Shown here: positions 7,054 to 36,844 of the stretch, piece after piece
Numbering within the stretch: position 1 is the first letter of the stretch
Layout of the letters: every line of letters starts with the position of its first letter
Assembly: GCA_905233525.1 (NCBI GenBank)
Contig: CAJOEW010000004.1
Location: 1 to 37,487, forward strand
Reading direction: 5' to 3'
Source of the DNA: an uncultured Synergistales bacterium
GTDB taxonomy: Bacteria > Synergistota > Synergistia > Synergistales > Aminobacteriaceae
DNA: 37,487 nucleotides
Position numbers and translations under genes: made by a program
Notes under the pieces: generated by a model
The model's input: the letters and a program-made list of their open reading frames with translations, nothing else
Told to the model about the DNA's origin: nothing
The model's database searches: none

Positions 7054-7118
7054 AAAGGAATGTTGACGAAATGCACGAAAATGATATAATGTCCTGTCTT
7101 GTCCTGTCCTGTCCGTAA
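7054..7118 (+). CDS. SD and start region of the pyruvyl transferase, read in the current (out-of-frame) repeat phase
   Basis: AAAGGA (7054-7059) lies 11 bases before ATG 7071. Translation from that ATG gives MHENDIMSCLVLSCP and stops at TAA 7116-7118, just past the pentanucleotide repeat. One added 5-base unit would shift this frame into the pyruvyl transferase frame (...SCPVRKVLLVTF), so this is probably the true 5' end of the next gene in its off phase. The rival reading is a real promoter here (TTGACG 7063-7068, 16 bases, TATAAT 7085-7090), which would start transcription downstream of this ATG. Confidence 0.5.
7092..7115 (+). repeat. Pentanucleotide tandem repeat (TCCTG)n, candidate phase-variation tract
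   Basis: The units are TCCTG, TCTTG (one variant), TCCTG, TCCTG, then partial TCCG (7092-7115). The tract lies between an SD-served ATG and the conserved start of the pyruvyl transferase domain. Slippage by one unit changes the reading frame. The count is low and one unit is degenerate, so slippage would be slower than at longer tracts. Confidence 0.75.
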
Positions 7119-8217
7119 AGTATTGCTTGTAACTTTTCACGGTGCAAATTATGGAATGGCTTTGCAAAATTATGCGTTACAAAATGTTTTAAAATCATTC
7201 GGCCTTGAAGTTTATAATTTATTTGACAAAACACCGGTCAAAAATCGCTTTGTTTATGTTGCAAAAAAGATCGTTAAATTTTTTCTAGCGCTGTCAGGTG
7301 TAAAAAAATATCAGCCAGAATTTTCATCAACAAGAAAAGCACGCGATAAAAAAAATGATTCGTTTTATGAAAAATTCTTAGACAATAAAATATACATCAC
7401 TCGAAATTCCATTCTAGATCCTGATAATAAAGCCCGCTGGTCTGAATACGATTATGCCATAGTCGGTAGTGATATGGTGTGGCATTGGAGCGAAACTGAA
7501 GACGAATTTAAATATTATTATCTGGCGTTCGTTGAGCCTGAAAAAAGAATCAATTACGCTCCAAGCTTCGGCCTTTCAAAATATGCATTTGAAAATCAGG
7601 AATTACATAAAAAATATTTAGCTGAGTTCGAAAAATTATCCTGCCGTGAATCAAGCGGTTGCGAGTTGTTAAAAAATATGACCGGACGCGAAATTGTTAA
7701 CGTGCTTGATCCTTCAATGCTGCTTACTGTTGATGATTATAAGGCTATCGCTAAAAAACCTGATTATGAAATTCCTGAGCATTATGTCATATCGTACTTT
7801 ATCGAAGAGCTTTCAAAAGATGATAAACGCGATTATAAACATGTGATCGAAAAAGTTGCCGGCGGTTTGAAAAATATTGACGTGTTTAATCCAAATGAAA
7901 AAAAATATTTTGCTACGTCGCCTGATGAATGGTTATGGCTCATGGAACATGCTGATTTTATTTTTACAAATTCCTTTCACGGCGCTGTGTTCTCAATATT
8001 ATTTCATAAGCAGTTTATTTCGTTTGAACGCAGAGCCGGCGGTATGCATCAAAAAATTGAAGACTTGTTATCACGTTTTAATCTCAATAATAGAATTTAC
8101 AGAAATGACGCTAAGATCCCTGACGGTGATATCAATTATAAATTTGTTGACGAAAAATTAAACAGCTTCCGAATAATCTCAATGAATTATTTGCGCGATT
8201 GCCTGAATATAAAATAA
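7099..8217 (+). CDS. Polysaccharide pyruvyl transferase family protein, 5' end at a frame-shifting repeat
   Basis: The domain begins KVLLVTFHGANYGMALQNYALQ and continues with YDYAIVGSDMVWHW, NYAPSFG, CRESSGCELL, VLDPSMLL and FTNSFHGAVFSI, the recurring blocks of PF04230 (WcaK/CsaB-like). These enzymes transfer pyruvate ketals from PEP to sugars of capsule, EPS, LPS or cell-wall polymers. The open frame is 372 codons from a TTG at 7099 that lies within the repeat and has no SD. The only good SD+ATG (7054-7073) is in another frame and would join this frame if the repeat gained one unit or lost two. The gene stands alone between a terminator (6960) and another promoter (8225-8253), with no glycosyltransferases nearby. 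Family call is secure; the substrate is unknown. Confidence 0.85.
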   Translation: MSCPVRKVLLVTFHGANYGMALQNYALQNVLKSFGLEVYNLFDKTPVKNRFVYVAKKIVKFFLALSGVKKYQPEFSSTRKARDKKNDSFYEKFLDNKIYITRNSILDPDNKARWSEYDYAIVGSDMVWHWSETEDEFKYYYLAFVEPEKRINYAPSFGLSKYAFENQELHKKYLAEFEKLSCRESSGCELLKNMTGREIVNVLDPSMLLTVDDYKAIAKKPDYEIPEHYVISYFIEELSKDDKRDYKHVIEKVAGGLKNIDVFNPNEKKYFATSPDEWLWLMEHADFIFTNSFHGAVFSILFHKQFISFERRAGGMHQKIEDLLSRFNLNNRIYRNDAKIPDGDINYKFVDEKLNSFRIISMNYLRDCLNIK

Positions 8218-33364: not shown

Positions 33365-33411
33365 AAAAAATTTCCCTCCCAAGTGAAAAGCTTAAGGAGG
33401 GATTTATTTTT
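33365..33411. terminator. Bidirectional terminator between purL and the methyltransferase (repeat copy A)
   Basis: TCCCTCC (33373-33379) pairs with GGAGGGA (33396-33402), extended by AAG/CTT inside. T-rich sequence follows on the plus strand, and on the minus strand the stem is followed by AAATTTTTT. About 45 bases here closely match the terminator at 34570-34615. Confidence 0.85.
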
Positions 33412-34327
33412 ATTTGTGCTTAAAAATATGTTTTATAGCTCTGATTGCTGATGATGTTTTTGGAAAAGCGTCCCACATGAAATTTTTCAAAGCTGGTATA
33501 AAACCTTTAGGCTTTCTATTTAATGAATTAGCATACATAATTTTTTGAAAGTCCAGGACGTGATCAAAGAATGTTATATACTCAGGATAATATTTGGCTA
33601 AAATTTTTTTTATGCTGTTCAAATCTTCAGGCCATATTACACACGGCAATTTATGTATTTGGCTTTCAGGTACAGTATCAACAGGCAATGATATCCAGGG
33701 ATTTAATAACGCTTCAAAAACGTTGCCAATATATTTAAAAGTGTCGTCAGTGATTTTGAATGCGCCTATATTAGCAAAATGAGGGATATTACGTCCGTAT
33801 TTGCGTTTGTAGTTAGAATTATCTTCAGTTTCAGGTGCAGGCGATAATTTTTCATCTGATACGGCATGGCTCCATAAATACCGGCAAGCCAAAAAATTAG
33901 CTGCAAAGAAATGCGCTGCAATATCATGAAGTATCACCCATGAATTATTATTCCTTTTCATGAACGGCAGTACACATAAAAAATTTAAGCTTTCCCACGG
34001 GTGAATATGCATTGTATCTATTAAAACGAGATCAATATCTCCACCGATCTCTTCAATAAATTTTGACACATCGCCGCCTCTGTAAATTGTCCATTTATTT
34101 TTTAATTCCGGGAATTTTTCATCGACAAGAAAACCTGATTGCTTATCCGGATATCTATATGCGTTCTCACAATAATCAACTGAGTATAAATGAGCGCCGT
34201 CAATATCTTTTATGGCATTCAAAATTAAAGCCGCACTGCCTCCGCTTGAAACGCCGACCTCAAGAATTTTTTTAGGCTTCAAAAAACGTATTACTCCATT
34301 GAAAAAATAACGCTCGTTCTTGCCCAT
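33410..34327 (-). CDS. Class I SAM-dependent methyltransferase (Methyltransf_24/CmcI-like), 5' end at a frame-shifting repeat
   Basis: From the ATG at 34327 the frame gives 305 residues with the SAM-binding ILEVGVSSGGSAALIL, then LYSVDYCE, YRGGDVSKFIEEIGGDIDLVLIDTMHIHPWESLNFL and WVILHDIAAHF. This is the Methyltransf_24/cephalosporin-hydroxylase-like family common in surface polysaccharide loci. The same frame remains open and plausibly coding upstream (HSFAKIIPENFERERLDEIYSDIEKYSE) to about 34414, where it enters the heptamer repeat, so ATG 34327 (which has no SD) is not the natural start. The SD (AAAGGA) and TTG at 34497 are in a different frame and would connect if the repeat gained one unit or lost two. 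Substrate unknown. Confidence 0.85.
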   Translation of the reverse strand: MGKNERYFFNGVIRFLKPKKILEVGVSSGGSAALILNAIKDIDGAHLYSVDYCENAYRYPDKQSGFLVDEKFPELKNKWTIYRGGDVSKFIEEIGGDIDLVLIDTMHIHPWESLNFLCVLPFMKRNNNSWVILHDIAAHFFAANFLACRYLWSHAVSDEKLSPAPETEDNSNYKRKYGRNIPHFANIGAFKITDDTFKYIGNVFEALLNPWISLPVDTVPESQIHKLPCVIWPEDLNSIKKILAKYYPEYITFFDHVLDFQKIMYANSLNRKPKGFIPALKNFMWDAFPKTSSAIRAIKHIFKHK

Positions 34328-34392
34328 TTCAGAATATTTTTCAATATCGGAGTAAATCTCATCAAGGCGTTCACGTTCGAAATTTTCAGGGA

Positions 34393-34497
34393 TTATTTTT
34401 GCAAAAGAATGGCCGTTGCTCGTTGCTCGTTGCTCGTTGCTCGTTGCTCGTTGCTCGTTGCTCGTTGCTCGTTGCTCAATTGTGATGGATTTTGCAA
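34393..34497 (-). CDS. Start region of the methyltransferase in its current (out-of-frame) repeat phase
   Basis: AAAGGA (complement of 34508-34513) lies 10 bases before TTG 34497. Translation gives MQNPSQL, three copies of SNEQRAT, then AILLQK and a stop at 34393-34395. This stop closes the frame shortly after the repeat. It is best read as the off-phase 5' end of the methyltransferase gene rather than as a separate protein. Confidence 0.5.
   Translation of the reverse strand: MQNPSQLSNEQRATSNEQRATSNEQRATAILLQK
34415..34477 (-). repeat. Heptanucleotide tandem repeat, (GTTGCTC)9, candidate phase-variation tract
   Basis: Nine perfect units (plus strand GTTGCTC; coding strand GAGCAAC) span 63 bases with no mismatch. 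The lack of divergence suggests recent or ongoing slippage. It lies between the SD-served TTG at 34497 and the methyltransferase coding sequence. Each unit shifts the frame by one; three units encode SNEQRAT. Confidence 0.97.
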
Positions 34498-34567
34498 TTT
34501 TGTCAAGTCCTTTCTTACTGATTTTATGTAAAAAAATTTATAACGCCTGAATTTTATCATAAATGCG

Positions 34568-34606
34568 CAAAAAAATTTCCCTTCCAAGTCAAATGCTCAG
34601 AAGGGA
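34568..34606 (-). terminator. Terminator after flagellin (repeat copy B)
   Basis: On the minus strand TCCCTTC (complement of 34600-34606) pairs with GAAGGGA (complement of 34578-34584), followed by AAATTTTTTT. It separates flagellin from the methyltransferase. Confidence 0.88.
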
Positions 34607-34636: not shown

Positions 34637-36844
34637 TTACATGCTCATTAAACTGCGTATAGTGCCTTGTGTTAAGCCTTGAGCCTGCGTTAACATTGAG
34701 CTGCTTGTGCTGTTTATTATTTGCAGTTTTATGAACTCCATCATTTCTTTAGCCATATCAGCGTCCATTATGAGGCTCTCTGATTTTTCAAGATTGGCGC
34801 TCGTTTGAGTTAAGCTGCTGGCGCTTGTTTCAAGTTCATTCATGTAACTTCCGACTTTAGTACGTTGTACGGAAATTGTGCGTATAGCGTTATCAATCGT
34901 AGTAATAGCTTTCGACGCGCTGTCATGAGACAATAAATTTATCTCATCGATTCCAAGTGCGGAAGCAGTTACATCAGCGATATCAATCTGCATTTCCTCG
35001 CCAAGATTTTGTCCGACTTGAAACGCTGTACTTGTATTCACGATATGAACATTTGCTACATAAGGCTCGCGTTCATTGCTGGATAAGACATAACGCTTTG
35101 TATTTTCATCCCATGAGGCTTTAATATTAGCGTTGTGATCAAATTCAATATCAACATTGGGATTTATAACGCCGATCAATTTATTTTCGTTAGTGTTGAT
35201 ATTGCGTTGAATCGTTGAGCCTGTATGAGCATTCGTTATATTTGCCGTGTAAGTATTTTCCTTTGATTCCTGGATTGTGTTTAATCCGAGCTTTGAGATC
35301 AATTCCTGGTTTGATGATGAAAAAGTTAATTCTCCTGCACGACCTGCCACAGCTGAACGAACAAGTAAAGTATATGCAACAGCTTCAGAGCCTGTATTTT
35401 GAGCATCATTCTCATTAACGAACGTCACAAATTTGTCATTATTATCAGTGTAAAGATTTTGGCCTAAGTCATAAGCTACAGCATCATTTAATTTTCTTCG
35501 AACGTCTGCTATTGTGTCAGTAGAATAAATTAAAATTGATGTCGATTTGCCATTGCCCTGAGTGATTTTTATATCTTGAGGCTGATCAAGCAAAAATGTT
35601 CCGCTCGAATTATAGAAATCAGGAATATCCACTAAATGCGGCGCTTCTTCTTCAATATCGTAAGCAAGATTGACCATATGAGAATTATCTAACGAGCCTT
35701 CACCGCCTCCGATATCGTCAATTTCATCGCTGCCGGCCTCTGCTGTAACTTGACCGCCTGAATATAAATCGGTATCAACTTTTATAACGCCGTTTGTTGA
35801 ATTCCATGCTCCTCCGATTCCTGCTGCGCTTTCTCCTCCGATTGCATTAAGCGAGCCGTTTTCATCATTGCTCTTTAAAATTCTTAACGTTGATGAAAAA
35901 TCAAGTTCGAGTCCAGCCCTTCCGCTTCCGCTTATTAACGAGTTATCGCCGTGCAGAAATAAATCGACATTTGCTCCTGACATATCAAAAGCGCTAACGC
36001 CGTCTTCTTCGCCAGCGTCAATGTTTACGTTATTCAAACGTATTTGAGCTTTAACGCCTTGAGCAACTACGATTTTATTATTTGTAGCGCCGTCAGAACC
36101 GTTAATAATATAATTGCCGTCACCAGTAATATTTAAAACGCCGTCCGTAAAATTCCAGCCGTTACCAGACGTTTTACCAGTATCAGTATCAACGCCTTCA
36201 GTTAAATTTATTTCGTAATCGTATTCGCTGTCATCATCGCTTGGATCATCGATCTGGACTGTAAATATATTGCTCTTTTGGACTTGTGCCTGACCTGCTT
36301 TAGCGCGGACTTCGATTCTATAATTACCTTCAGCGCTTTTCTTTTGACCGAATTGATCAAGAACAGTGAGCGAGCCTTTAATATGAACTTTTGTATTCAC
36401 ATTATCGGATGTCCATGTACCTGCTGAGCTTCCGTCTAACAGTCTTTTACAGTTAAACGTAGTATTATGCGCGAGGTCATCAATATTTTTTTTAAGGGCT
36501 TCCATTTCGATTTGAATATAATTTCTATCGAACTGAGTTAAGCTTTCGCTTGCAGCCTGTACAGACAATTCGCGCATACGTTGTAACATTGAGTTAATTT
36601 GATTCAGACCGCCCTCAGCAGTTTGTAAGAGTGATATACCGTCTTCAGAATTTTTAACGGCGCGATCGACTCCAGCTTTTTGAGAGGAAATTTTTTCACT
36701 GATAGCCACTCCGGCCGCGTCATCTGAGGAAGTACTGATACGCCGTCCTGTAGATAAAATTTTGGCAGTTCGTTCAATTGAGTTATTAACTCTCGTCAAT
36801 GAATTGAATGCCGAAGTGATTGACGGATTATATCCTATCTTCAT
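34637..36844 (-). CDS. Flagellin with large central beta-helix-like insertion
   Basis: The 735 residues start with a canonical flagellin D0/D1 half (1-145: SITSAFNSLTRVNNSIERTAKILSTGRRIS, DDAAGVAISEKI, QTAEGGLNQINSMLQRMRELSVQAA) and end with the matching C-terminal half (about 640-735: AITTIDNAIRTISVQRTKVGSYMNELE ... MLTQAQGLTQGTIRSLM). Residues about 225-390 form Gly/Asp/Asn-rich beta repeats (GVLNITGDGNYIINGSDGATNNKIVV; AGIGGAWNSTNGVI; GGQVTAEAGSDEI) like the beta-helix repeats of gut bacterial surface proteins. Residues about 420-640 add further outer domains. The filament subunit is exported by the flagellar type III system. AGGAGG precedes the ATG by about 11 bases. A terminator follows. 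Confidence 0.95.
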   Translation of the reverse strand: MKIGYNPSITSAFNSLTRVNNSIERTAKILSTGRRISTSSDDAAGVAISEKISSQKAGVDRAVKNSEDGISLLQTAEGGLNQINSMLQRMRELSVQAASESLTQFDRNYIQIEMEALKKNIDDLAHNTTFNCKRLLDGSSAGTWTSDNVNTKVHIKGSLTVLDQFGQKKSAEGNYRIEVRAKAGQAQVQKSNIFTVQIDDPSDDDSEYDYEINLTEGVDTDTGKTSGNGWNFTDGVLNITGDGNYIINGSDGATNNKIVVAQGVKAQIRLNNVNIDAGEEDGVSAFDMSGANVDLFLHGDNSLISGSGRAGLELDFSSTLRILKSNDENGSLNAIGGESAAGIGGAWNSTNGVIKVDTDLYSGGQVTAEAGSDEIDDIGGGEGSLDNSHMVNLAYDIEEEAPHLVDIPDFYNSSGTFLLDQPQDIKITQGNGKSTSILIYSTDTIADVRRKLNDAVAYDLGQNLYTDNNDKFVTFVNENDAQNTGSEAVAYTLLVRSAVAGRAGELTFSSSNQELISKLGLNTIQESKENTYTANITNAHTGSTIQRNINTNENKLIGVINPNVDIEFDHNANIKASWDENTKRYVLSSNEREPYVANVHIVNTSTAFQVGQNLGEEMQIDIADVTASALGIDEINLLSHDSASKAITTIDNAIRTISVQRTKVGSYMNELETSASSLTQTSANLEKSESLIMDADMAKEMMEFIKLQIINSTSSSMLTQAQGLTQGTIRSLMSM

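Follow-up and report, generated by a model that had tools for sequence, protein, structure and literature searches.

Does a perfect heptanucleotide array lying between a ribosome-binding site and a methyltransferase gene decide whether the enzyme is made, and from which codon is the enzyme then read? The locus lies on the minus strand of the window, the whole stretch of 37,487 nucleotides analysed here, from an uncultured Synergistales bacterium. Its elements are the following, all on the minus strand:

34578-34606: terminator-like hairpin closing the flagellin gene
34551-34561: extended -10-like TATGATAAAAT (P1), picked out by eye, candidate promoter of the mRNA containing the Shine-Dalgarno (SD)
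34508-34513: SD AAAGGA, at an SD-start spacing that matches other array leaders
34479-34506: promoter-like element P2, TTGACA-N16-CACAAT, scoring 10/12 and ending one base before the array
34495-34497: TTG, most likely the start codon, out of frame with the enzyme at nine units
34415-34477: perfect heptamer array (GAGCAAC)9, stop-free in all three frames
34393-34497: OFF-state frame of 34 codons, opened by TTG 34497 and running through the array to its stop at 34393
33410-34414: Methyltransf_24/COMT-like O-methyltransferase frame 3′ of the array, conserved from about 34405
34325-34327: ATG of the annotated-style start, encoding an internal and invariant Met (residue 29); no SD found by eye

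The array and the reading frames

A first-pass annotation, made from the letters alone, had described a perfect (GTTGCTC)9 array, an SD AAAGGA and a TTG at 34497 reading into it and stopping at 34393, and an enzyme frame devoid of ATG, GTG or TTG before ATG 34327. Our analysis recovered each of these elements at the same coordinates. TRF identifies a single array (34414-34477, period 7, 9.1 copies, 100% match), read on the minus strand 34477-34415 as (GAGCAAC)9, 63 bases with zero mismatches; no second array of this unit was found in an assembly-wide search. The enzyme frame is open from a TAA stop at 34540, across the array, until the stop at 33410, and a scan of this frame from 34540 found no ATG, GTG or TTG upstream of ATG 34327. 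At nine units it includes ATT codons at 34498 and 34480, the first of which overlaps TTG 34497 and lies 9 nt from the SD; weak initiation at ATT 34498 is a possible leak at this unit number.

Unit number was then changed in silico. TTG 34497 is in frame with the enzyme at N = 1, 4, 7, 10 and 13, in agreement with the annotation's proposal that one added unit or two lost would fuse the SD-served start to the enzyme. Two properties of a translational SSR contingency locus are present: a unit that is not a multiple of three, in an array placed early in an open reading frame, and, in silico, a one-unit change that brings the gene into the frame of the SD-served start or takes it out. The methyltransferase is probably its own transcription unit, since the terminator-like hairpin closes the flagellin gene upstream. 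At 735 aa this neighbouring flagellin (window 34637-36844, minus strand) is long; a large insert separates its conserved ends, and the protein is a possible target of glycan modification.

We consider it highly probable that the locus is a slipped-strand contingency locus acting on a glycan-type O-methyltransferase, a reading in which slippage in vivo, the start codon and the substrate are what we infer. Ribosomes would start at TTG 34497, the most likely start codon, behind the SD AAAGGA and enter the heptamer array; because seven is not a multiple of three, each unit gained or lost would shift the enzyme frame. At nine units the frame would end after 34 codons, an OFF state with at most leaky initiation at ATT 34498. 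With 7, 10 or 13 units, read-through would yield the O-methyltransferase at full length, its N-terminal heptad tail being variable.

The enzyme and its probable N-terminus

The enzyme belongs to Methyltransf_24 (Pfam, E 8.7e-12), with its conserved motifs present and its 333 residues intact. A SAM fold, motif I (EVGxxxGG) and a structural match to solved O-methyltransferases assign it to the COMT-like class I O-methyltransferases. The predicted structure (pLDDT 80, pTM 0.80) includes a confident helix at residues 13-26, before M29. Structure search returned COMT-like O-methyltransferases including mycobacterial MeT1 (best E 1.1e-7), with TM values normalised to the query of only 0.35-0.44, which appear too low to settle the substrate class. 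The most likely substrate is a surface or flagellar glycan, a guess from context that draws on the adjoining flagellin and the glycan genes behind other arrays. A phage-borne gene was also considered and rejected: searches of viral contigs with the locus and with the enzyme each gave no match.

Of 36 sampled congeners, 14 have a homologue; 24 genomes representing other genera in the order yielded none. Alignments with the congener homologues begin at query residue 3-9, which places their first residue 20-26 residues ahead of ATG 34327 (residue 29), and the FERERLDxIY...YSEM segment upstream of this codon is conserved among them. The annotation had held that coding extends upstream of ATG 34327 and that homologues beginning there would speak against it. 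The alignments bear out the first point, and the congener homologues with an ordinary SD-ATG start (L014, L018, L020, L024) have their start at least 20 residues ahead of this Met. Because homologues align and start 20 or more residues upstream and a conserved helix precedes M29, ATG 34327 is an internal, invariant Met and not the natural start.

It might still be argued that the enzyme is made constitutively from ATG 34327, the array being merely untranslated leader DNA: this ATG is the first of the frame and its Met is invariant in 16 homologues. Such a start, however, has no visible SD, would lose conserved helix residues and disagrees with the upstream starts of the SD-ATG homologues; arrays before the gene, moreover, retain stop-free units. 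With homology and an ordered helix both lying upstream, we rejected this start and judge constitutive expression from it very improbable.

Arrays ahead of homologous methyltransferases

The position of the array is conserved upstream of homologues, the unit is not, with counts from 4.1 to 11 across other species:

ACTCAGG x4.1, GCATCAC x6.9, CAAGCCA x4.3, ACACAGC x11
TCGGTTA x8.7, GGTATCG x4.3, GAGCAAC x4.6, GATTCAG x5.9

The comparison of unit counts among relatives suggested by the annotation therefore gave same-place arrays that differ in both unit and count. The SD-served start is in frame with the enzyme in L009 and L025, and not in L016 and L026. The carriers, all Synergistaceae MAGs, come in many cases from goat, deer and reindeer; some are labelled Fretibacterium sp.

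These homologues also bear on whether the gene could be a decaying pseudogene with a neutral repeat, as its out-of-frame state in the assembly and the 22 other congeners without detectable homologue might suggest. We regard this as exceedingly unlikely: all 333 residues and the conserved motifs are intact, in-frame homologues exist elsewhere, and a 63-nt repeat without substitution suggests recent turnover.

Arrays across the genome

Perfect arrays of at least 2.7 units were surveyed over 1.48 Mb of the genome. We observed 21 heptamer and 6 octamer arrays, against 0.33 of each expected from an order-3 Markov control, plus single arrays of 10-, 11- and 14-mers. The array-linked genes are mostly glycan genes: GT8 (3), polysaccharide pyruvyl transferase (3, plus one in the window), MBOAT acyltransferases (3) and DUF4422 (3), together with GT1, GT2, a priming sugar transferase, a UbiA-family enzyme, a radical SAM protein and a second Methyltransf_24 protein. 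None of the 27 distinct units contains a stop codon in any frame (P 0.001), and 7 of the 23 loci with an assignable start are ON, matching random-phase expectation. The methyltransferase locus would be one of about 30 array switches in this genome, mostly on glycan genes. A further candidate lies within the window, on the plus strand, and is built like the methyltransferase locus:

7054-8217, plus strand: second candidate switch, polysaccharide pyruvyl transferase
Its parts, plus strand: SD (7054-7059), TTGACG (7063-7068), ATG 7071, TATAAT, TGTCC x3 (7100-7114)

ATG 7071 is out of frame at three TGTCC units and in frame at one or four. Poly-G/C tracts of 10-11 bases were also seen, several inside glycosyltransferase-type genes (L035:2097, L047:15846, L061:15419, L082:15280, L095:8236); they are probably further contingency loci.

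One leader, present in six copies, provided a proxy for slippage. Over 75 nt, five of the copies share 93-99% identity, and the sixth is 85-88% identical; the six carry 4.75, 3.75, 4.25, 2.75, 10.75 and 7.75 octamer units and lead, where comparable, into unrelated sequence (18-32% identity). Such near-identical leaders with 2.75 to 10.75 units and unrelated downstream DNA suggest that unit number evolves faster than the flanking DNA and that the leader moved from one gene to another. A contig end is found within 160 nt of five of the 32 arrays (L041, L056, L078, L105, L106; 0.4 expected), an excess that fits equally length polymorphism or repeated leaders breaking the assembly.

The contingency reading of the methyltransferase locus is thus favoured by its exact frame logic, by homology and a helix upstream of ATG 34327, by the differing same-place arrays of congeners, by 21 heptamer arrays where 0.33 were expected, by stop-free units, by the differing leader copies and by 7 of 23 loci being ON. 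Counting against it are the start TTG, weaker than the ATG of many sister loci, and the possible leak from ATT 34498.

Two leader architectures

Array leaders follow two architectures. In type I, to which the methyltransferase locus belongs, the frame of the array continues into the gene and is fused to it. In type II, the array is carried in a short leader ORF, of which one exit frame extends for about 40-130 nt, to a stop that falls on or beside the start codon of the following gene (ATGA, TAATG); of the two remaining frames, at least one and usually both stop early. A loose coupling criterion (stop at -16 to +20 of the ATG) was dropped, as 46% of ordinary gene starts satisfy it, and coupling was tested with a tight criterion (stop within 3 nt of the start) and with exact ATGA overlap. 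A stop within 3 nt was found in 8/12 leaders of the first set and 9/16 of the second (congener) set, compared to 13-14% of control positions, and exact ATGA in 8/16 compared to 9% in controls (P 3e-5).

In three congener methyltransferase leaders, L013 (1355-1507), L019 (1325-1491) and L023, the long frame passes through strong hairpins that have a T tract behind them (z -4.4 to -5.8); the outer arms of these hairpins include the region of the gene's own SD. We predict that a ribosome translating the ON frame would open up the hairpin and then reinitiate at the ATGA. The terminator logic of these leaders would parallel the established pil1 case, the coupling step being our own inference. Many type II leaders have no obvious terminator, and at the methyltransferase locus, where the frame is fused, no hairpin was found after the array.

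A promoter-like element at the array edge

Taken alone, P2 of the methyltransferase locus (10/12) is not above shuffle expectation. Across 34 similarity-thinned leaders, we found TTGACA-N16-18-TATAAT with its -10 hexamer directly adjoining the array's first base; at this edge the element scores a mean of 9.9/12, whereas other offsets in those leaders average 6.6 (p 4e-16), and six elements are perfect. The layout is as follows: the SD is just 5′ of the -35, the start codon falls within the spacer, then come the -10 and the array. This plan of SD, start codon, sigma-70-like element and array would be common to many array switches. Leaders L070:12927, L084:1522, L075:10111 and L165:13325 are examples with a near-consensus sigma-70 element at the array.

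TTGACA within the 14 nt before the first ATG was found in only 1 of 957 ordinary ORFs. An array-blind search with the pattern AGGANNTTGACAN{16,18}TATAAT found matches in 24 of 43 congeners and in 1 of 145 other Synergistota; a reversed-pattern control gave one match. Tandem arrays directly follow the motif on its 3′ side at 26 of the 31 pattern loci fetched, a few of which overlap leaders used to derive the pattern, and one other ends 8 nt past the motif. The offset scan, the 1/957 background and the array-blind search together counter the objection that TTGACA and TATAAT arise by chance in A+T-rich DNA. Judged by eye, the reading frame of TATAAT with respect to the start codon is not always the same, and this speaks for constraint at the nucleotide rather than the protein level.

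With a near-consensus element flush with the arrays and a cassette that predicts arrays in most loci fetched, one may ask whether the array acts as the initially transcribed region of P2, tuning promoter output or mRNA stability and not frame. However, the predicted P2 transcript would begin inside the array, devoid of SD and start codon, and P2 alone could not express type I genes; nearly all leaders keep an SD and a start codon, type II stops sit on the next start codon, and units avoid stop codons. We therefore view a purely transcriptional role as quite improbable. In the contingency reading, the upstream -10-like P1 (34561-34551) would drive type I expression.

More tentatively, and with rather low expectation, we can imagine that the genus possesses a portable mutational cassette: the sigma-70 promoter in the start of the leader ORF would hold the transcription bubble on the first unit, initiation would create and expand the array, and transcription would drive the switching rate, the same device serving types I and II. 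New to us is a cassette particular to this genus: its near-consensus sigma-70 promoter and the leader start codon overlap, and the -10 abuts the array.

Relation to known switches

The methyltransferase locus itself would belong to a known kind of switch; the novelty lies in the cassette system. Its closest likeness in build is neuO, the capsule O-acetyltransferase gene of the E. coli K1 prophage CUS-3, where a heptanucleotide AAGACTC array in the 5′ coding region sets the frame (PMC13001214). Both are of the type I build, a heptamer array in the 5′ coding region of a glycan-modifying enzyme with slippage setting the frame, but neuO is ON at counts divisible by 3 and the methyltransferase locus at N = 1 modulo 3. 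Furthermore, neuO is a single prophage gene for a sialate O-acetyltransferase, whereas here an unrelated enzyme of Methyltransf_24 type and COMT-like fold is one of about 30 loci, and no relative of it was found in viral contigs.

In pil1/pil3 of Streptococcus gallolyticus, GCAGA pentamers in a leader-peptide ORF decide by frame whether a terminator is crossed, as experimentally established for pil1 (PMC3894217). The type II leaders L013, L019 and L023 follow the same leader-ORF/terminator logic and have this leader-attenuation architecture. The methyltransferase locus, in contrast, is fused, with neither leader ORF nor terminator and with heptamers instead of pentamers, and the type II ON frame here also ends on the start codon of the gene (ATGA).

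At hmw1A/hmw2A, unit number tunes transcription. In this Haemophilus influenzae system the heptamer arrays lie near the promoters of a surface factor (PMC8262952); at the methyltransferase locus, by contrast, the array is inside an open frame and downstream of the -10. Phasevarions (PMC4525171) involve phase-variable DNA methyltransferases such as ModA and share with our locus a methyltransferase behind a 5′ tandem repeat. The enzyme here is, however, a COMT-like small-substrate methyltransferase of Methyltransf_24, with no DNA methylase domain, and a phasevarion role was rejected.

A literature search retrieved no report of repeat-driven phase variation in Synergistota, weak evidence of absence as most subscription journals lay outside it. 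If our reading is true, a gut Synergistaceae genus would carry many independent sugar-gene switches per genome, a surface-diversifying capacity like that of Campylobacter or Neisseria in an uncultured commensal lineage. The cassette, an array-anchored promoter-like element with two output architectures, would offer a testable system for the origin of long-unit repeats and for asking whether transcription governs their mutation rate.

Heptamer or pentamer arrays were also observed near some more distant homologues of the methyltransferase in Brachyspira (L128, L130, L131, L134, L139, L141), L130 being of the type II (ATGA) build. These arrays suggest transfer or convergence across phyla.
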